From positions 1 to 33,296 of the IMG/VR virus record IMGVR_UViG_3300010370_000126: 33,296 nt of DNA. One strand, 5' to 3'. Below are positions 3,308 through 27,601 of the stretch, piece after piece. The notes beneath the pieces are model-generated. The model was not told the DNA's origin, did no database searches, and saw only the letters and a list, made by a program, of their open reading frames with translations. The DNA is from a virus. The position numbers were made by a program, and so were the translations under genes. Numbering within the stretch: the stretch's first letter is position 1; every line of letters begins with the position of its first letter.

Positions 3308-5511
3308 TGGCTCGCTATTCCAGATACGGGGCGATTGACAGCCCGATTGCAACGGATGGTGACACAGCCTTCCTGAAGATGAACAATCGTCTGCGGCCTG
3401 ACCAGCTTCAGGCAGCGGAAGTGGCCTACTCATCCAACGGGCGGATGGATGTTGATGGAGCTTGGCAAACCCGCAAAGGCATTGACAGTTTTGGTCCTAC
3501 GCTGGCTGGAAATACGGAGTCGATTCGCCTACTGGCTACCCCCACTTGGAAGCTGTATTCGGGTACGGTGAGCATTAGCTCAGCCAGCCGAAGTAATGCC
3601 ACGGTGACGGTGAATACTTCCACCAGCCACGGCTATTCATCAGACACGCTGGTTTACATCTCTGGCCTTACAGGAACTGTTAATCCAAATGGCAATCGCC
3701 TCATTACGGTTGTCAATGCCACCCAATTCACGTTTAGCATTACAGGGGCTACTGGAACCGAAACCTACTCTGGTGCTGGAACTAGTCAGCCAGCCCAGCT
3801 TTCCGCTGCATCCGTAACGGGCGTCTTTGGATCGTGCCTTTTCAGCAATCCGAATACGGCCAACGACAACTACATCATTCTGGCCACCAACCTGAATGTT
3901 CAGGCCATCAAGTTGTCTACTGGTGTAGCCACCACCCTCACCTACCCGACAGGGGTTACGATTGCATCCACCGTCGAGCTCCTGCACGCTTTTGACAAGG
4001 TGTTCATCTTCAGGAATGGGCAGCAAGCCCTGCAATGGGACGGCGATTTTAACGGGTCGTTGGCTTTCACCTTGGTTCAAGGAGGAGCGTATGCTGCCTC
4101 AACGTACATAGACAACTCAAACAACACGGTTGTTCTTGATGGAGTTGCAACTGTTACCACTCCTTCAAGTCACGGCCTATCTGTTGGCGACCAAATTTAC
4201 GTCGTTGATAAGGGTGCTGGGTCATTAATTGAGGATGGAGATGGCTACACCATTGCCAGCGTTACAACTTCGCCTTCACACACGTTTACGTTCTACACCC
4301 AGACGCCCGACGACGCCACCCATAAGGCGGTTTATTCCGTTAGGCAGAGCCAAAGCCTTGGTTTGATGCATATGCCAGCCCCAGCTTGGGGTGTTCAGCA
4401 TCAACGCCGTTTGTGGCTCCCGTATGTTTACGAACCGGGTGGGACATCGGGTAGCCCCACCTACACGAATAGGAAGATTTTGGATGAGGTGGTTGCTTCC
4501 GACATTCTGGACAGCGACACCTACGACAAGATTCAGTCGCAATACCGCATTAGCGCGGGTACGGCTGACAGCTTGGTGGGAGTGGAGCCGTTTGCCGAGG
4601 ACAACCTGCTTGTCTTCATGCGGCACTCCATCCACCTCATCAAGGGCATATCAGGAAGCCTACTGGACACATCAGTCAATCTAATCACCAAAGAGGTGGG
4701 ATGTGTGGCCCGCAAGTCCATCGTCCAGATTGGCAATCAGGTGTTGTTCCTCTCGGACAATGGTGTCTACGCCGCAGCCTTCGGCGACCTTTACAACCTA
4801 CGCGGAGCGGGCGTCCCGCTGTCCGAGCCTATCAACCCCCTGATTGGGCGTATCAACCGTAATTACGCCCAGAACGCCGTAGCGGCCTATTACAACAATC
4901 GCTACTATCTGGCTGTTCCGTTGGACAATTCAACGGTGAACAACACCCTGTTGGTGTACAACTTCCTCAATCAGGGATGGGAGTCCATCGACACCACGGG
5001 TCAGAACGCTTGGGAGATTAACCAGCTAATTGTCGGGGATACGGGAGGGTTGTCCAAGCTCTACGTTGTGGGCAGCTTGGGAGCCATCCACATCATTGAT
5101 GGGCGTGAGGACAACAAGGACAACCTCACGCTGTATGCGGGCATAGGGGCTCAAGCCTACCCCATAAGCTCCTACGCCACCACCCGTCAGTATACGATGG
5201 GAACTCTAGACCGTAAGAAGTTCTCGTCTTACGAGCTTCATGTGGAATCTTCCGCAAGTCAGGCTTCCAATGCCTCCATTGCCGTGGAAACGGAGAATCT
5301 GGACTCCACGGAGGCCCTTACAACCATCTACGAACTGCTAGGAAACGCCAATCTGAGTGTGGCTGAAGATGCCTCCCTGCGTGGTAGGATTGGTAATAAG
5401 CGGGGCTATGGGGCTCAGCTCACCTTCACGCCAACCTCTGGAAGACCCAAACTACGGGCCGTAACGCTAAATGCGGCCATCACCAATCTCGGAATAACCC
5501 AAGCCACCTAA
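3307..5511 (+). CDS. Large structural protein, probable tail nozzle/beta-propeller
   Basis: The best start is ATG 3307, which overlaps the preceding TAA; the frame is open upstream but only as a shadow of the Gly-rich gene. The 734-residue product has no membrane segment and is rich in beta-type repeats (GDQIYVVDKG, TVSISSASRSNATVTV). A conserved stretch VGNQVLFLSDNGVYAAAFG is followed later by YYNNRYYLAVPLD and LLVYNFLNQGWESID. This repeated 'SDNGVY ... YYLAVP ... VYNF...W' signature is seen in nozzle-like, DNA-stabilising tail proteins of podoviruses (P22 gp10 and T7 gp12 type). The exact equivalence is inferred from pattern and position beside tail-fibre genes. Confidence 0.62.
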   Translation: MARYSRYGAIDSPIATDGDTAFLKMNNRLRPDQLQAAEVAYSSNGRMDVDGAWQTRKGIDSFGPTLAGNTESIRLLATPTWKLYSGTVSISSASRSNATVTVNTSTSHGYSSDTLVYISGLTGTVNPNGNRLITVVNATQFTFSITGATGTETYSGAGTSQPAQLSAASVTGVFGSCLFSNPNTANDNYIILATNLNVQAIKLSTGVATTLTYPTGVTIASTVELLHAFDKVFIFRNGQQALQWDGDFNGSLAFTLVQGGAYAASTYIDNSNNTVVLDGVATVTTPSSHGLSVGDQIYVVDKGAGSLIEDGDGYTIASVTTSPSHTFTFYTQTPDDATHKAVYSVRQSQSLGLMHMPAPAWGVQHQRRLWLPYVYEPGGTSGSPTYTNRKILDEVVASDILDSDTYDKIQSQYRISAGTADSLVGVEPFAEDNLLVFMRHSIHLIKGISGSLLDTSVNLITKEVGCVARKSIVQIGNQVLFLSDNGVYAAAFGDLYNLRGAGVPLSEPINPLIGRINRNYAQNAVAAYYNNRYYLAVPLDNSTVNNTLLVYNFLNQGWESIDTTGQNAWEINQLIVGDTGGLSKLYVVGSLGAIHIIDGREDNKDNLTLYAGIGAQAYPISSYATTRQYTMGTLDRKKFSSYELHVESSASQASNASIAVETENLDSTEALTTIYELLGNANLSVAEDASLRGRIGNKRGYGAQLTFTPTSGRPKLRAVTLNAAITNLGITQAT

Positions 5512-21491: not shown

Positions 21492-21568
21492 TGGCGGGAT
21501 GAACGGGGCTCGAACCCGTGGCCTTCTGCGTGACAGGCAGACGCTCTGACCAACTGAGCTATCACCCC
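21492..21568 (-). tRNA. tRNA-Asp (GTC)
   Basis: The minus strand folds as a complete cloverleaf. The acceptor stem GGGGTGA pairs with TCATCCC, the D-arm holds TAGCTCAGTTGGTCAGAGC, the anticodon arm CTGCCTGTCACGCAG carries anticodon GTC, and the T-arm is ACGGGTTCGAGCCCCGT. It has discriminator G and an encoded CCA. All conserved positions look intact. It lies within the early cluster in the same direction; a bacterial-type origin or codon-supply role are both possible. A protein frame covering it is spurious. Confidence 0.95.
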
Positions 21569-21708
21569 TTCAAACGAAAGATTCTGTGGGTACTGCCGGT
21601 TGAACACCAGCCTTTTCAGAGCAAGCATTGAGACGCTGGCCCTGCCCACTCACCAATCTCATCTTTGGTGGAATGATGACACATGTCACCAAGTCGAAAT
21701 TCTATCAG

Positions 21709-21957
21709 TTAGTTGTTCTCCACTTTAGTGGAAGCTGATTGGTACAGGACATCCACCGCAGCGTCAGCCGCGTCAATGCCCCTGCTCACTATGCCCCGCC
21801 ATTCCTTGGCCGCATCCACCACCTCCTGCTGCTCCTTGCATTCAGGAGCAGGAAATCTGGATAGAAATCCATCCATGATTTGATTGGCCCTGAGGATTAT
21901 TTCCGCAAGGGCCATAGCTCTCTCCACCGTGATTCCAGCATTGTCATTCATGTTCAT
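21709..21957 (-). CDS. Small helical protein, 82 aa
   Basis: The preferred start is ATG 21957, which overlaps the stop of a tiny upstream frame (ATGA); ATG 21951 and 21975 are alternatives. The product has NDNAGITVERAMALAEIILR, ANQIMDGFLSRFPAPECKEQ and GIVSRGIDAADAAVDVLYQS, forming three amphipathic helices. It is transcribed ahead of the tRNA gene. Function unknown. Confidence 0.6.
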   Translation of the reverse strand: MNMNDNAGITVERAMALAEIILRANQIMDGFLSRFPAPECKEQQEVVDAAKEWRGIVSRGIDAADAAVDVLYQSASTKVENN

Positions 21958-22031
21958 CGCCCATGAGCCAGACACTTTCGGCTCTCCCTTGCAAGCTCTT
22001 TTTTGAATTTTCTTTCAGCTCTCCTTTTCAT
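21954..22031 (-). CDS. Possible 25-residue basic peptide
   Basis: A short frame from ATG 22031 encodes a very basic peptide (MKRRAERKFKKELARESRKC, end LAHGR). It overlaps the stop of the frame upstream and the start of the gene downstream (ATGA), as other junctions in this cluster do. There is no good ribosome site. Real coding is uncertain. Confidence 0.35.
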   Translation of the reverse strand: MKRRAERKFKKELARESRKCLAHGR

Positions 22032-22155
22032 ACGCTGGTGATGATGTAGGAATACGGGCGCAGTTCACCCATTGCTGGGTGAATGCATTCCTTTCCTCCG
22101 CTGTCTGATGAGAGATGAGGTAGCCGGTATGCTGCCGATCACGCTGGTAGGCCAT
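22015..22155 (-). CDS. Possible small protein, 46 aa
   Basis: A frame from ATG 22155 to TGA 22015-22017 encodes MAYQRDRQHTGYLISHQTAE, then ERNAFTQQWVNCARIP, ending AYEKES. Composition is protein-like and the frame joins the downstream series by overlap. An 8-bp hairpin (TTCACCCA/TGGGTGAA, 22064-22082) lies inside it. No clear ribosome site is seen. Unrecognised. Confidence 0.4.
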   Translation of the reverse strand: MAYQRDRQHTGYLISHQTAEERNAFTQQWVNCARIPTSSPAYEKES

Positions 22156-22319
22156 TGCCCGTGATTGCTCGGCGGTTCACTCCCCGAAGGGAGCCTATTA
22201 AGGATGGCTGGTGTTGCTCGGTCGGGCCATCCGCCAGATGATGCAAGAACTCCCTTGCACAGGGAGAGCCGCACCTCCGTCCAATATGTGAAGCCTAGGA
22301 CGGCGTAGGACAAACCATC
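22156..22319. other. Region without supported gene
   Basis: About 160 bases between two small minus-strand frames. A frame crosses it (starting TTG near 22313) but its translation (Ser/Pro-rich, no clear fold) is not convincing. I see no promoter or tRNA in it. Confidence 0.5.
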
Positions 22320-22526
22320 TTACAATGCCTTTGATGATGGTAGCACCATCTCAACGACATCACTCTTGAACAAGCTGGTGTGAGCCTCCGCTGCCTTGTC
22401 TGAGGAGGGAGCCACAATCCATCGCCACCCCCTGCACAACACGCGAGGGCCGTCCTTCTGCTTACGGAACACCCTGTTCCCAGCCATGAGTTTCGCCCTC
22501 CAATGCACCTGCCATTTTGTTTCCAT
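22320..22526 (-). CDS. Small basic protein, 68 aa
   Basis: The frame from ATG 22526 encodes METKWQVHWRAKLMAGNRVF, then RKQKDGPRVLCRGWRWIVAP, then SSDKAAEAHTSLFKSDVVEM, ending VLPSSKAL. It looks like a small two-part alpha/beta domain and is the first credible gene of the minus-strand cluster. A copy of a 15-base palindrome lies just before its start and another inside codons 16-20, so its translation or transcription may be controlled there. Function unknown. Confidence 0.55.
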   Translation of the reverse strand: METKWQVHWRAKLMAGNRVFRKQKDGPRVLCRGWRWIVAPSSDKAAEAHTSLFKSDVVEMVLPSSKAL

Positions 22527-22552
22527 GCCGCTACAGGAACACCCTGTTCCTG
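22466..22552. promoter_or_regulatory. Two copies of palindrome GGAACACCCTGTTCC
   Basis: GGAACACCCTGTTCC occurs at 22466-22480 and at 22536-22550, 70 bases apart. The second extends to CAGGAACACCCTGTTCCTG (22534-22552), with 8-bp arms. The second copy lies 8-26 bases before ATG 22526 of the minus-strand gene, and a TTGACA (minus strand, 22560-22555) precedes it. This looks like a paired operator for a dimeric repressor, or an RNA hairpin over the ribosome site. No strong -10 element is visible. Confidence 0.55.
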
Positions 22553-22561
22553 CTTGTCAAA

Positions 22562-22594
22562 TAAAAATCCCCACCCGCTACGCAGATGGGGATT
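22562..22594 (-). terminator. Rho-independent terminator, minus strand
   Basis: On the minus strand AATCCCCA and TGGGGATT form an 8-bp stem (plus arms 22566-22573 and 22587-22594), followed by TTTTTATTT. It would end a leftward transcript arriving from the region beyond 22,600, just before the first early gene, and so could also act as an attenuator. Confidence 0.7.
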
Positions 22595-23110
22595 CTCGGT
22601 GAGCGGTGACACGCCCACACTTGAACATGGAACACAACTGGCAGGGATACATTCTACCAGCCGGGCTGGAATGCAAGCGGGAAAACGAAAAAAAGTACGG
22701 CTGGGGGTGTGACGATGCGGGGCTTCGGCTGGGAGTGTGACGGTGTTACGTCCGACCCCTCTGATGCTGCTCATCCGTTCCTGCCCTCGCGTTTGCCCAT
22801 TAACCGCCGTTACTTGCGTTTCTAGCCAGTTTATCGTCATGGTCGTAACCCTGCCCTACTTCGCCTTTCTGACAGTCAGATTAGCCTCTGCCGCATTAGC
22901 CTTCCCAATCCTCCAATCCTTTTGGAGCTCGGCGTGGTGTAGGCATTCCCCTCGCAAGCTCGGGAAATGCAGAAGAATGTGCCGAGACGCAGGGGCTTCG
23001 CCCCCGCGACGCCCCCACTTGCGCGCTCTGCGGAGCGCTGAAGCAAGCAAGCTACGGGACGATCGGGGCCCCTTGCCCCAATCGCCCTACGCAGAAACAG
23101 GACCCCGCTA
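22595..23110. other. Intergenic region, no confident gene
   Basis: About 500 bases between divergent clusters. Several frames cross it on both strands, but none has a good ribosome site and a convincing product. A 17-base direct repeat, CGGCTGGG(G/A)GTGTGACG, occurs at 22698-22714 and 22726-22742. Short starts with a GAGGGG site on the minus strand near 22,950 encode only a 16-residue peptide. The composition around 22,990-23,090 is very G+C-rich. Confidence 0.45.
22698..22742. repeat. 17-base direct repeat pair
   Basis: CGGCTGGGGGTGTGACG (22698-22714) and CGGCTGGGAGTGTGACG (22726-22742) differ at one base and are 28 bases apart centre to centre, close to three helical turns. They could be protein-binding sites. 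Only two copies are seen. Confidence 0.5.
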
Positions 23111-23426
23111 GACAGCCCCCTAGCAAGGGGCTGTCAATTCGATGTCTTGGGCTCAGCTCCGCATCGCCCAAGCAAAGTTAGCAATGGTCAACCATGGTAC
23201 AGGAGGGCCTCGTCGGCCCTCCCTCGCCCGCCCAACCACAGCTTAGACACCAAATAGTGACTGCGCTATGCGCAGGCGCGGCACAGGAGTGCCGCTACAA
23301 GGCGCAGAAAGGGGGCGAATTGCCCCCTTTCACACTATCCCCCATCATAGCTCAGTTAGCCGATTCCACCGCGCCTTCGGCGCATCGGTCAGGCACTGGA
23401 GAAGCCGTCCAGATTCGCCTGAGGCG
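23111..23426. other. Chain of consecutive hairpins
   Basis: At least seven perfect or near-perfect stems follow each other: GACAGCCCC/GGGGCTGTC (23111-23135), GGAGGGCC/GGCCCTCC (23202-23222), CTGCGC/GCGCAG (23261-23275), GCGGCAC/GTGCCGC (23278-23295), GAAAGGGGGC/GCCCCCTTTC (23307-23331), CCGAT+GCGCC/GGCGC+ATCGG (23360-23388) and CTGGA/TCCAG (23396-23412). A palindrome CGCCTGAGGCG follows at 23416-23426. No credible protein frame covers the stretch. It may be a structured RNA, an origin or a packaging-related site. Confidence 0.6.
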
Positions 23427-23430
23427 TGTC

Positions 23431-23557
23431 TGTATTCATCGCAAGGCAGCATAGCACACCTGCCAAGGACGCTCCACTTCGCAAAGCCTTCGTTCCGCGC
23501 CGCCTTCGGCGGTCTTCGATCCTTGACAGGCATGCTATGCCCAGAGCGATGAATACA
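23431..23557. repeat. Large imperfect inverted repeat ending at a start codon
   Basis: The left arm begins TGTATTCATCGC (23431-23442) and the right arm ends GCGATGAATACA (23546-23557), a perfect 12-bp match. Inside, CATAGCA pairs with TGCTATG, then CCTG and CAAGGA pair with CAG(G) and TCCTTG, giving arms of about 38 bases and a loop of about 50 bases with a further CCGCC/GGCGG stem. The right arm contains ATG 23549, the start of the next gene; the left arm carries the same GCGATGAATACA leader pointing the other way, opening a 16-codon minus-strand frame. Confidence 0.85.
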
Positions 23558-24172
23558 TCCACGTCCCCAGTCGAATCAAAACAGGCCGTCTTCACCAGTG
23601 CCAAGGCGACCGATTTAAGTAGTTATGTTTTGCAGTTGCTGCAGAATGTTGAGACTTCTGTAGCCGCTTTTGACGTTGATAGGTTATCAGACAGCCAGTT
23701 GAAGGAGAGGATTGAGCAAGCTAGGAAGGTTGTCGCTGCCCAAAAGGAAGAGGATCGGGCGCAGATCGACTCAGCAGCTCGCCGCGAAGAGAGCAGACAA
23801 CAATCTGCAGATGATGCGTGCAACGCAGACATCATGGACTCGCATGCCGCAATCGACCGCCGCGATAGCCGTTCGCGCAGCGACAGGCGTGACGCAAGAG
23901 ATGAACGTGAGCGCCACATACTCCAGTCGTCATATCGCGTTGCCGCACGCACGATAAAGGTGGAAGTTCAGTTTTACATCGTACACAATGAAGACACTGC
24001 GTACATTACATACATCACTGGAAGCACCAAAGACCGTAGCCTCAAGCAGAGCGTCAACTCTGCCCGAAGCATCTACCGCACGCTGCTCTCTCGCGGCTAC
24101 AAGAAAGCCGACCACGGAGAAGACATGCTAGGCGGTGGCGTCGTCTATCGCAATGCGACGCGCAACGAATGA
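23549..24172 (+). CDS. Hypothetical helical protein, 207 aa
   Basis: ATG 23549 is the natural start (MNTSTSPVESKQAVFTSAKA); the open frame upstream runs through the inverted repeat. Residues about 40-135 are a highly charged helix (LKERIEQARKVVAAQKEEDR; RRDSRSRSDRRDARDERERH), and the last 75 residues form an alpha/beta-like part (VEVQFYIVHNEDTAYITYIT; SARSIYRTLLSRGYKKADHG). There is no membrane segment and no known catalytic motif. It is the first gene of the accessory operon with the amidoligase. I do not recognise it. The start lies inside a strong hairpin, so translation may be regulated. Confidence 0.7.
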   Translation: MNTSTSPVESKQAVFTSAKATDLSSYVLQLLQNVETSVAAFDVDRLSDSQLKERIEQARKVVAAQKEEDRAQIDSAARREESRQQSADDACNADIMDSHAAIDRRDSRSRSDRRDARDERERHILQSSYRVAARTIKVEVQFYIVHNEDTAYITYITGSTKDRSLKQSVNSARSIYRTLLSRGYKKADHGEDMLGGGVVYRNATRNE

Positions 24173-24238
24173 AAACAACTAATCCTTCTCTTAATTCCTA
24201 CATCCCAGTGGGGTATCGCCCCCACACGACTCAATCCC

Positions 24239-24463
24239 ATGACAACTGAAAACCTAAAGAGATTACAACGCGCAAAGGAATTTGGCTACATAACGCAAAC
24301 TGCTGTGCCAGTTGCGTACGAGTACCAAATCGTAAGCGCAGACGGAGCCGCCTTCACGCTGCTGCGCGAAGCGCACCACACCGACTCCGACATCCGCAAA
24401 GCAAAGTCCTTCCTCTACAACTCCGACGATGTTGTCAGACTCAACACAGAAACCATCTCGTAA
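24239..24463 (+). CDS. Hypothetical small protein, 74 aa
   Basis: The product begins MTTENLKRLQRAKEFGYITQ and continues AYEYQIVSADGAAFTLLREA, then SDIRKAKSFLYNSDDVVRLN. Strand-helix alternation suggests a small globular fold. The start has no obvious ribosome site, as for most genes in this operon. A small stem GTGGGG/CCCCAC (24208-24225) precedes it. Function unknown. Confidence 0.6.
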   Translation: MTTENLKRLQRAKEFGYITQTAVPVAYEYQIVSADGAAFTLLREAHHTDSDIRKAKSFLYNSDDVVRLNTETIS

Positions 24464-24479
24464 CCACGCTTCAACGCAT

Positions 24480-24704
24480 ATGCACATCAAGACACACACC
24501 CTGCCATCAAGCTGGGTATCTTACCTAGTTAACGAAGACTTGCTCTTCGTATCAGAGCAGGAGCAAAACGAATGCTTCAAGTTCCTCAAAGAGCAAGACC
24601 TAGACCCGTCCGACCTTGTTTCAACATCATCCCGCTTTTACGGAATGTCACACCACAACCTCAAAACCCAAGAGGTGTGCGTTTACGCTTTCAGCACCAA
24701 ATAA
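24480..24704 (+). CDS. Small phage protein, DUF6926-like, 74 aa
   Basis: ATG 24480 is preferred over the longer frame, which overlaps the previous gene. The pattern LPSSWVSYLVNEDLLFVSEQ, EQNECFKFLKEQDLDP and CVYAF resembles the phage family that reads LPS.WAS.LINGD...L...E...ID.FL...... and ends in a YTFL/YAF strand (DUF6926). This assignment rests on pattern memory and is moderate. The start context MHIK is repeated in the next gene. Confidence 0.6.
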   Translation: MHIKTHTLPSSWVSYLVNEDLLFVSEQEQNECFKFLKEQDLDPSDLVSTSSRFYGMSHHNLKTQEVCVYAFSTK

Positions 24705-24709
24705 CTAAA

Positions 24710-24880
24710 ATGCACATCAAAGTTCCCATGCCCATCAACTTCCGTCTTCTAGCCGAACGCGCCGAAGCCCGCGAGCTTCGCCAGCGCCGTATTGACAAGG
24801 GCGTACTCAGCCCTATCTTCGGCTCCGTCAAACTTTCCCCACGTCGGGGATTCCTCGCCCGGGTCTGGGCCGCAAGGTGA
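24710..24880 (+). CDS. Small basic protein, 56 aa
   Basis: ATG 24710 opens a 56-residue frame starting MHIKVPMPINFRLLAERAEA and ending KLSPRRGFLARVWAAR. It is strongly basic and mostly helical. The start context AAATGCACATCAA is nearly the same as that of the gene before it, which hints at duplication of the 5' region. Its stop (AGG TGA) lies just before a possible GTG start of the amidoligase. Function unknown. Confidence 0.5.
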   Translation: MHIKVPMPINFRLLAERAEARELRQRRIDKGVLSPIFGSVKLSPRRGFLARVWAAR

Positions 24881-24905
24881 CACTTGCGTGACTACGCATA
24901 CGAAC

Positions 24906-26087
24906 ATGAAACGTAATCGCAAACGACAGCTGAACTCCGTGTTCAATCGCATCATCGCCGAGATGATTGCTGCCGACAACTACACGTTCAATGAACGTGG
25001 AATCCCCATGACACAGGCCACGGCACGCGAGCTTCGCGAAAGACTCGCCGAGGCCATCTGCGCGACAAACGACTCCAGCTGGCTGCTCGGCCAAGCAGAG
25101 ATTTGCCGCTTCTACGACTCAAGCCTAACGCATGAGGCACTTGCCACCAAGCGCCAACAGGGGGAAGAGCTTCCTCCGGTCATGTACATGCTTATGCCCA
25201 CAACGCTAACGGCACATCGTGTGCTCCGTCCTTACACAGACAGGGTGATGTACTGTCCCTACGCCAAGAGCCACCTGAAGAACTGCATCCGCGACCGCCG
25301 CTGCATCCACAGCGACTACGCACGAGACAGACGCTTCGCTGAGAGCCAAGGCTTCATCGCCCGCATCAAGCAGATGGACCTCACGCCCAAGGTATTCCGC
25401 TACAACCGAGCCATCTCCGTGGAGATTGAAGGCTTCGCCTCCGTAGGTTTCGAGGCGATGTCACAGGCCCTGCCCATCTGGGCCCGCACAGGTGGAGATG
25501 GCTCCATCCGCGTGCCCACGGGCAGAGGTTATCAGGCCCACGAGGTCAAGGCCCTGTTCCCCCGTGAGCTCATGGAGCCCCGCCTGTACAAGCTGTGCTC
25601 CATCCTCAACAGCCTCGACTTCCGCGTCAATCGGTCCTGTGGACTCCATGTCCACGTCGACCGTCGCGGTATGTCGGAGCCCGAGGTTATCAAGCTCGCC
25701 CGCCGCGTGGACAAGTGGATTGACCAGCTCATTGAGCTGTTCCCGCTGTCCCGTCGTGACAACAGCTACTGCAAGGGTGGCATCGCCGTCGGCGACCGCT
25801 ACCGCCGCGTGAACGTCTCGGCCTTCAGCAAGTACCAAACGCTGGAGTTCCGCATCCACTCGGGCACCTGCAACTACACCAAAATCCTCATGTGGATTCG
25901 CCTCATCGAACTCCTCATGGCCATGCCCAAGGCACCCAAGCCAGCCGACACGCTCCAAACACTCGCGCAGCTCCCGCTGCCCGAGAACGACCGCGCCTAC
26001 TGGCTCCGCCGCCATCGTGAGATAAATCCTCACCTCTACAACGAAGCCCCAGCCCAGAACACCGACAGCCTCAACACGGAGGAATAA
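24906..26087 (+). CDS. Amidoligase (COOH-NH2 ligase, Amidoligase_2-like)
   Basis: This is a glutamine-synthetase-fold ligase that should join a carboxylate to an amine using ATP. In the 393-residue form, motifs are SVEIEG (171-176), TGGDGSI (195-201, the D-x-S box), HEVKALF (Glu213), CGLHVHVD (245-252, metal/ATP site), RDNSYC (284-289), DRYRRVN (297-303) and TLEFRIHSGT (312-321). The N-terminal 160 residues are an extra domain with Cys118, Cys127, Cys133 and His135, possibly zinc-binding. ATG 24906 is given; GTG 24888 with AAGGTG upstream is an alternative. It lies 3 bases before a class II glutaminase, a pairing known for phage amidoligases. Confidence 0.88.
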   Translation: MKRNRKRQLNSVFNRIIAEMIAADNYTFNERGIPMTQATARELRERLAEAICATNDSSWLLGQAEICRFYDSSLTHEALATKRQQGEELPPVMYMLMPTTLTAHRVLRPYTDRVMYCPYAKSHLKNCIRDRRCIHSDYARDRRFAESQGFIARIKQMDLTPKVFRYNRAISVEIEGFASVGFEAMSQALPIWARTGGDGSIRVPTGRGYQAHEVKALFPRELMEPRLYKLCSILNSLDFRVNRSCGLHVHVDRRGMSEPEVIKLARRVDKWIDQLIELFPLSRRDNSYCKGGIAVGDRYRRVNVSAFSKYQTLEFRIHSGTCNYTKILMWIRLIELLMAMPKAPKPADTLQTLAQLPLPENDRAYWLRRHREINPHLYNEAPAQNTDSLNTEE

Positions 26088-26090
26088 GCC

Positions 26091-26957
26091 ATGTGCAAAA
26101 TCGCCATCATCACTCAACATAATCCCTCGGAACGTGACGCCATCATCGCTCGCGTTTGGGCCTATTTCTCCCAGTCGGGAGAGAACGACGGCTTCGGAGC
26201 CGCTTGGCTGGACGAGCAAGGCAAGCTCGCCTACGTCAAGCGCCGCCACGCCTCCCTTGAGGCCCCTCCGCCCTTCGCCTCGTCCTTCTACGAGGACCAC
26301 AACACGGCCAACGCCTCCAACGGTGGGCCGCTCATCATCCACGGCCGCAAAGCCACCTGTGGCGTCAATCTGGAGAACACCCACCCCATGCTTGACGACA
26401 AACGCCAGCGCGGCCTCCTCATCCACAACGGCATCGTCGAAACCGAGAACGAGACGCTTGATCCTGTCACCAGCTCATGCGACTCGGAAATCCTGCTCCG
26501 CGCCATGCTCCACAAGGGCACCAAGGGTCTGGAGGATGTCACCGGCTACTTCGCCTTCGCCTACCTACGCCCAGCCTCGCGCAAGCACGTCTGGTCGCTC
26601 ACGGTGGTCAAGGACAACGTGGCCAGCCTCCACGTCGGCCACAAGTCGGATGTCATCGCCTTCGGCACCACGCCCCACACCGTCCAGCTCATGCTGAACG
26701 AGAATGTGGCCACATGGCCCGTCAAGGACAACACCGCCATGCTGTTCACGGCCAAGGCGAAGCCCCGTATGTGGTCCGTCAAGAAGGGCCAGAAGCCAGC
26801 CCCCAAGCCCACCCACCACGAACCCTACCGCTACACCCGCGATTGGCCAGCCAAACACACCAGCCGCAGCTCCTTCGACAGCGTTCTCACCCAGAACACC
26901 TTCGAAGAACGCAACTACCAACTCGCATTGGAGGCAATGTCCAATGAGGGTCCTTGA
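26091..26957 (+). CDS. Class II glutamine amidotransferase
   Basis: The 288-residue protein starts MCKIAI, and cleavage of Met1 would expose Cys2, the N-terminal nucleophile of the Ntn glutaminases. Other family landmarks are HGRKATCGVNLENTHPM (His84, Arg86, Asn96 and His98 region), LLIHNGIV (His112, Asn113, Gly114) and CDSEILL (Asp131-Glu133). The enzyme should release ammonia from glutamine. It has only the glutaminase domain plus a basic tail (about 225-288), with no synthetase domain, so the amidoligase just upstream is the likely acceptor. GGAGG lies upstream of the start. Confidence 0.87.
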   Translation: MCKIAIITQHNPSERDAIIARVWAYFSQSGENDGFGAAWLDEQGKLAYVKRRHASLEAPPPFASSFYEDHNTANASNGGPLIIHGRKATCGVNLENTHPMLDDKRQRGLLIHNGIVETENETLDPVTSSCDSEILLRAMLHKGTKGLEDVTGYFAFAYLRPASRKHVWSLTVVKDNVASLHVGHKSDVIAFGTTPHTVQLMLNENVATWPVKDNTAMLFTAKAKPRMWSVKKGQKPAPKPTHHEPYRYTRDWPAKHTSRSSFDSVLTQNTFEERNYQLALEAMSNEGP

Positions 26958-27045
26958 CATGATAGTTGGGGCCCTCGTCGCGCTATTCATAGTTTGCATC
27001 TACACGCTCACTATCCTGTTCATCGACAAGGATAAGGGCGACTAG
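26944..27045 (+). CDS. 33-residue membrane peptide
   Basis: An ATG at 26944, overlapping the glutaminase end by 14 bases, encodes MRVLDMIVGALVALFIVCIY, then TLTILFIDKDKGD. Residues about 6-27 form a membrane helix with a charged C-terminal tail. It is the last gene before a strong terminator. It could anchor or localise a product of the operon. No family recognised. Confidence 0.6.
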   Translation: MRVLDMIVGALVALFIVCIYTLTILFIDKDKGD

Positions 27046-27066
27046 GCCCTAGCTCGGTCCCACCAC

Positions 27067-27122
27067 AAAGGGAGCAGCGGAGTTCTGGCGGACGCCAGGG
27101 CGACCCGTTGCTCCCTTTTTTT
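27067..27122 (+). terminator. Strong rho-independent terminator
   Basis: AAAGGGAGCAGCGG (27067-27080) pairs with CCGTTGCTCCCTTT (27105-27118) over about 14 positions with one G-U pair, followed by a T-run at 27116-27122. A second stem CTGGC/GCCAG lies in the loop. It closes the accessory operon 22 bases after the last stop. Confidence 0.92.
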
Positions 27123-27601
27123 ATTCCCCCGCACGCGCACGGGAACAATGCAATTCCACAGGCCCTATCGGGCCAGCAAGGAGAGAAAAGGCAGGTGCGG
27201 GATCATACGAGTCCGCTGCTTCGCAGCTCCCTAATGTACGCCAGAGGTGATAGCCACTACCAGCGGGTTCCCGTTGCTTCGCAACGACCCTATTGGTCTA
27301 CCGGGGGGGCGGGGGTATCTGAAAAGCTCGGGGGGCCCAATGCCATTGGGTCCACCCAACAGGGTTAAAAAAATTTAGACAGGTGCCCCGTTGCCAATCC
27401 TAGCCACTACTACTTAAGTGTAGTGTTTTCGTAACACGCCCTATCAGTAGTTTTTGGAATTAGAGGACGGGAGATAAGGGTAAAAAGTTACACACAATTT
27501 TAAAATTCCTATTATGGGGACGTAAGTGGCTGATTGACAGTAGGATGGTGGTAAAGATTTCCCAGCTTGTATTTTAGTAATAGCCCTGCTTAAATGTTCT
27601 T
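27123..27601. other. Intergenic region before terminase genes
   Basis: This 480-base stretch has no supported gene. It holds small stems GGCCC/GGGCC (27161-27174), GCTGC/GCAGC (27215-27227), CGTTGC/GCAACG (27272-27286) and CCCAAT/ATTGGG (27336-27350). The 10-mer TAGCCACTAC occurs at 27251 and 27401. G-runs at 27303-27335 could form a quadruplex. The right part is A+T-rich. Its position next to the small terminase gene makes a packaging (cos or pac) site and late promoter plausible. Confidence 0.55.
27487..27515 (+). promoter_or_regulatory. Sigma-70-type promoter candidate
   Basis: GTTACA (27487-27492) and TATTAT (27510-27515) are separated by 17 bases and lie in an A+T-rich stretch (AATTTTAAAATT) about 90 bases before the small terminase start. 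The -10 matches five of six consensus bases, the -35 four of six. A TTGACA at 27534-27539 has no good partner. Confidence 0.45.

Follow-up and report, generated by a model that had tools for sequence, protein, structure and literature searches.

A two-enzyme amidoligase–glutaminase cassette of an uncultivated phage: a reduced member of a proposed peptidoglycan-modification module

The cassette and its surroundings

The DNA analysed here is a virus record of 33,296 bases (IMGVR_UViG_3300010370_000126) from an uncultivated bacterial virus, and this whole stretch is referred to as the window. On its plus strand, an amidoligase gene is followed by a glutaminase gene with only 3 nt between the stop codon of the first and the start codon of the second. 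Small ORFs and a hairpin leader lie upstream of this pair, and a membrane peptide gene and a terminator lie downstream. The features are as follows.

23549–24172, plus strand: ORF of 207 aa, associated with the cassette by position only
24239–24463, plus strand: small ORF of 74 aa, with one distant relative in locus L184
24480–24704, plus strand: 74-aa member of an LPxxWxSYL protein family (DUF6926-like) that recurs upstream of the pair
24710–24880, plus strand: ORF of 56 aa, its 3' part overlapping the leader element and its stop codon lying inside hairpin H3
24827–24905, plus strand: leader element, a series of hairpins that stops about 8 nt short of the amidoligase ATG; recurrent upstream of the cassette
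24906–26087, plus strand: amidoligase (PF12224) of 393 aa, ATG at 24906 and stop codon at 26085–26087; assigned by Pfam, a 49-sequence alignment, an AF2 model and dN/dS
26091–26957, plus strand: stand-alone class II (Ntn) glutamine amidotransferase/glutaminase of 288 aa; assigned by PF13522, a 39-homologue alignment and AF2/Foldseek
26944–27045, plus strand: single-pass membrane peptide of 33 aa, recognised from its sequence, a near-identical copy in locus L004 and other small transmembrane (TM) peptides in relatives
27067–27123, plus strand: intrinsic terminator closing the cassette, a hairpin at about 27067–27118 followed by seven T; found by RNA folding and a pattern scan

The cassette is surrounded by helicase, nuclease, terminase and virion genes. 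TerS-like and TerL genes were found near the pair in 18 of 22 loci of the close clade, the window included. Phage C75C1 (OQ984151) shares the overall genome plan of the window, with 40% identity in TerL and 59% in a large structural protein, and by comparison with it the window probably lacks a few kb of head genes. Relative to the terminase genes, the cassette faces either direction within the lineage, as expected for a moron-like cassette. No host could be assigned, as the C75C1 record gives none and the named-genome matches to the pair are distant, largely in Bacteroidota loci. A contig binned to Gemmatimonadetes (L132, a MAG) carries an amidoligase with an SLT gene of this lineage about 2 kb upstream, which is a possible host hint or else a mis-binned virus. 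Three further observations concern the flanks. The ~1.9 kb just upstream of the cassette (21650–23500) showed no convincing gene, a tRNA-Asp lies on the minus strand at 21492–21568, and a noncoding stretch just before the TerS-like gene (27340–27500 in the window, 3370–3530 in L002) is strongly conserved between the two and could be a packaging site or a promoter.

The sequence-only reading of this DNA had counted four small unknown genes upstream of the pair, and their standing now differs. The protein at 24480–24704 belongs to a recurrent family, members of which precede the pair in L002, L021 and L023–L026; the L002 homologue weakly resembles DUF6926 (E 0.001, under the cut-off), and the window's own protein has no Pfam match. 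The ORF at 24239–24463 has one relative, 48% identical, in L184 of the same phage lineage, where the 6 kb examined contain no ligase. For the ORF at 23549–24172, we found neither a family match nor a relative in viral contigs. The 56-aa ORF is conserved in L002 (dN/dS 0.32 on 17 changes); since the leader element is itself conserved, its coding status is uncertain, and its 3' end lies on the leader, whose conservation is that of a nucleic acid and not of a protein. Three successive genes carry the same 18-nt sequence at their start codons (24473–24490, 24703–24720 and 24893–24910), which suggests duplicated start regions. A sigma-70 promoter for the operon was also sought, and its matches were no more frequent than in shuffled sequences.

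The ligase and the glutaminase as a unit

The amidoligase scored 47.3 bits against PF12224 (cut-off 22) and is thus a family member. The motifs VEIEG, DGSI, CGLHVHVD and EFRIHSGT, described as complete in the sequence-only reading, are all present in it, and each contains residues that are invariant among relatives. The conserved glutamine-synthetase (GS)-like core spans residues ~165–375, and the N-terminal ~165 residues evolve fast: against L002, dN was 0.122 in the first 145 residues and 0.017 in the core, a several-fold difference. Across 49 sequences, the invariant positions in window numbering are M1, E173, E175, D198, S200, E213, V241, N242, G246, L247, H248, H250, R283, R298, Y299, N303, E314 and R316. 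A loss of the ATP- or metal-binding residues was looked for, and instead the window ligase retains every invariant column (ExE, D, E, N/HxH, R, R, N, ExR), which we take to correspond to the metal and ATP residues of the GS superfamily. The AF2 model has pLDDT above 90 over most of the core and low values in the N-terminus. Both glutamine synthetase (E 1.3e-3, probability 0.99) and YbdK (probability 0.97) rank among its top four Foldseek matches. Because even the best E-value (1.3e-3) is weak and the TM-scores are low (~0.3), a GS-like fold is suggested by the model rather than proven.

The second gene was confirmed as a stand-alone glutaminase, as first described, with a PF13522 score of 37.6 bits against a cut-off of 27, so that both enzymes of the pair lie above their profile cut-offs. 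The residues C2, G36, H84, R86, T89, H98, P99, H112, N113, G114 and D131 are invariant across 39 sequences, and the window protein keeps all of them. We presume, with a profile alignment to 1xff as a guide, that the catalytic and binding residues among them are those of GlmS (Cys1, Arg73, Thr76, Asn98, Gly99 and Asp123). The AF2 model (pLDDT 85.6) matched the GlmS glutaminase domain with E 4e-11, and PurF and EgtC as well. Cys2, the glutamine-binding residues and the fold place the protein in class II (Ntn): the glutaminase domains of GlmS, PurF and AsnB and the enzyme EgtC share this fold, the Cys2 and the glutamine-binding residues, whereas the window protein stands alone and has no synthase domain. 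Since all residues invariant in the 49 amidoligases and the 39 glutaminases are present, both enzymes look catalytically intact from their alignments. Against L002, synonymous changes dominate in both genes (dN/dS 0.23 for the ligase and 0.09 for the glutaminase), and both are therefore under purifying selection.

To compare the pair across phages, an alignment-based scan of viral contigs gave at least 482 related stretches, the best 80 of which were kept; together with annotated phage records these made 56 dereplicated loci. Within this sample, weighted towards relatives of the window, the ligase gene is immediately followed by the glutaminase gene on the same strand in 41 of the 56 loci, so the two genes are not found apart in most relatives. 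At 13 of the 56 loci there was no glutaminase within the stretch of sequence covered, and the ligase can therefore apparently act alone. Among more distant loci from named genomes, an adjacent glutaminase was found in only 23 of 74. The ligase and glutaminase trees agree (r = 0.84 over 33 loci, a value reached in 0 of 2000 permutations), partly through shared phage descent. The pair is co-inherited, with strict adjacency and order and near-contiguous genes, and on this comparative record we regard the ligase and the glutaminase as a genuine functional unit. An apparent overlap of the ligase and amidotransferase genes in Arthrobacter phage Ottawa (L011) proved to be an ORF in another frame and not a fusion.

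The neighbours of the pair are mostly unrelated across phages: only two RimK-like and two gamma-glutamyl cyclotransferase (GGCT) proteins occurred among 134, and cell-wall genes showed no general enrichment across all phages. Of the 22 close relatives, 10 have SLT-type transglycosylase genes in the vicinity of the pair. A defence system was considered too, and the ligase, the glutaminase and three upstream ORFs gave no PADLOC match at E 0.1.

The membrane peptide and the leader element

The 33-residue membrane peptide noted earlier is encoded directly after the glutaminase, with 14 nt shared between the two genes, and the strong terminator that follows folds with -38.4 kcal/mol (z = -5.8) and was also found by the pattern scan. 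Against L004 the peptide is near-identical, with dN/dS ~0.2 on only 7 differences, and a different small TM peptide occupies the equivalent site in L002, L017, L018, L020, L021 and L023–L025. In the close clade, a small single-pass ORF starts between -25 and +60 nt from the glutaminase stop in 10 of 22 loci, against a background of 29/669 (4%) for other gene stops and 10/192 (5%) within the close clade. Given that these loci are related to one another and that their peptide sequences differ, they amount to about four independent cases. In six more loci, TM peptides lie 235–434 nt downstream. Since the peptide is found in both cassette orientations (L017 and L018 versus L020, L021 and L023–L025), it is part of the cassette and not of the terminase side. 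Thus, in close relatives, the membrane peptide belongs with the pair in either orientation. It may have a holin-like role, since 10 close relatives carry SLT-type transglycosylase genes in the neighbourhood of the pair.

The leader element recurs ahead of the cassette in 8 distinct sequences, and in some relatives an 86-aa gene stands between it and the ligase. Its reading frame differs among them: in the window it forms the last part of the 56-aa ORF, and in L024 a DUF6926-like ORF ends with it in another frame, with a stop codon at the equivalent aligned position in both. Conservation of the leader is at the level of nucleic acid and not of protein. Stems H1, H2 and H4 are 100% paired, and two pairs of H1/H4 are changed on both sides with none broken; hand realignment of H3 gave three two-sided changes and one broken cell in L172. 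The last two hairpins, H3 and H4, share bases and therefore cannot form together. The support comes from essentially one divergence (the window and L002 versus the L021–L025 type), the fold of the window's own leader has z = -1.0, and the window and L002 share an identical run of 92 nt that recent recombination could explain. For these reasons, the leader is graded as a probable RNA structure and not as a proven switch. A search of the leader for known riboswitches or other RNAs gave no significant Rfam match.

A sister clade has a hammerhead ribozyme at the pre-ligase site instead of the hairpin leader. It is of type II with a complete core (CGAAA, GUC, CUGANGA) and lies ~30 nt before the amidoligase ATG, at 4255–4311 in L029 and likewise just upstream of the amidoligase in L026, L027, L028, L030 and L034; in L031 one core base is changed. 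The match to Rfam RF02276 reached 23.8 bits, under the gathering score of 37.

Relation to known modules and proposed function

The amidoligase–glutaminase pair is already known in phages. LUZ24-like, RIO-1-like, phiEco32 and OM43 phages carry it, often inside a larger proposed peptidoglycan-modification module (PMC5498523, PMC3890496, PMC10580990). Such genes have been read as serving cell-wall modification, perhaps against superinfection, a view traced to Iyer et al. 2009 (PMC5498523, PMC10580990, PMC11318856), and the action of the phage module on peptidoglycan has been published as a hypothesis (PMC5498523, PMC10580990). In UFV-P2, a LUZ24-like Pseudomonas phage, the module proteins match the family profiles (E 8e-15 and 1e-26), and an amidoligase is followed on one strand by a class II glutamine amidotransferase, which is the order of the window; ATP-grasp, COOH-NH2 ligase and GGCT genes accompany the two in that phage. 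The OM43 phages MEP401 and MEP402 likewise combine a PF12224 amidoligase with a PF13522 glutaminase (PMC10580990). Arthrobacter phages Kovu and Ottawa also keep the ligase–glutaminase order, but their ligase is only ~24–31% identical to that of the window in the aligned parts and, unlike in the window, a GGCT gene lies just upstream.

The modules of LUZ24-like phages, phiEco32 and RIO-1 add ATP-grasp, COOH-NH2 ligase and GGCT genes (PMC3890496, PMC5498523), whereas the cassette of the window comes with a TM peptide gene that overlaps the glutaminase, a terminator of its own and the conserved leader. The linkage of amidoligase and amidotransferase is thus present, but no GGCT, ATP-grasp or COOH-NH2 ligase was detected in the window, which is probably incomplete, nor was an SLT-type transglycosylase. 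We therefore lowered the claim to a reduced version of the module. The earlier description of a compact, self-contained phage system fits the window as it stands; the system itself is a reduced, two-enzyme member of a published module and not an unrecognised one. What is new are the details: the attached TM peptide, the conserved leader hairpins, the hammerhead of the sister clade and a GGCT fusion in C75C1. That phage resembles the window in having the amidoligase beside the terminase genes, but its cassette faces the other way, its glutaminase is fused to GGCT and small ORFs lie between the fusion and the ligase. The fusion, WJE88161 (L094 16116–17012), is annotated as a gamma-glutamyl cyclotransferase with the glutaminase half left unannotated; it matches PF06094 with E 2.7e-21, and the glutaminase profile matches too.

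In the reading we prefer, the class II glutaminase would hydrolyse glutamine and pass the ammonia to the GS-like amidoligase, which would activate a carboxylate with ATP and then amidate it. The most plausible target would be a carboxylate on a cell-wall peptide or precursor, so that the surface of the infected cell is changed, with the blocking of superinfection as a possible benefit. Taken as a whole, this reduced peptidoglycan-modification cassette stands slightly short of an even chance. The ammonia transfer from glutaminase to ligase is its firmest part and seems somewhat probable; the cell-wall target is tentative, and placement at the membrane by the peptide is rather doubtful.

A serious rival, itself on the unlikely side, is a gamma-glutamyl add/remove cycle, in which the ligase would join the side chain of glutamate to an amine (YbdK/GCS-type) and the class II enzyme would remove or trim gamma-glutamyl amides as EgtC does, supplying no ammonia. 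It is serious because EgtC, which cleaves a gamma-glutamyl bond, falls little short of GlmS in its fit to the glutaminase model, and because the homologue in C75C1 forms a fusion with a gamma-glutamyl cyclotransferase; YbdK is moreover one of only a few folds matched by the ligase, and the amidotransferase has been listed with degradation genes (PMC5498523). However, by sequence the glutaminase is nearer to GlmS (E 6.5e-13) than to EgtC (E 0.01), and its 20.7 bits against the EgtC equivalog TIGR03442 are far under the cut-off of 218.65.

Phages modify DNA and host proteins, and the GS-like amidoligase superfamily includes the protein modifiers PafA and Dop, so the target might instead be phage DNA bases or a phage or host protein. 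Among the scanned ORFs of the window, however, no base-modification enzyme was detected, and the neighbours are helicase, nuclease, terminase and virion genes, which leaves such a target improbable. A bolder elaboration is a regulated, membrane-anchored amidation machine. Here the mutually exclusive leader hairpins, one of them containing the stop codon of the upstream ORF, would switch translation of the pair, with translation itself or the supply of glutamine as a possible signal; the overlapping peptide would anchor both enzymes at the membrane for the modification of a nascent envelope precursor, and sister phages would use the self-cleaving hammerhead instead of the leader. We give this little credence. 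Auxiliary nitrogen or amino-acid metabolism is the least probable reading: Planctomycetes Phage-ZRK32, for which aid to host nitrogen assimilation was proposed, has amidoligase and glutamine amidotransferase genes and stimulated growth with nitrate or ammonium, but the relevant passages of that account describe no test of individual genes (PMC10945688), a stand-alone glutaminase releases ammonia and does not fix it, and the window yielded no further nitrogen gene.

Although the pair is frequent in phage contigs, we found no report in the literature of an experimentally demonstrated substrate for this enzyme family. In the window, the two-enzyme version is small, intact and cleanly bounded, and it therefore offers a minimal system that would be easy to express and assay. 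The C75C1 amidotransferase–GGCT fusion offers a helpful hint about the chemistry, and the membrane peptide that accompanies the pair suggests a testable site of action.
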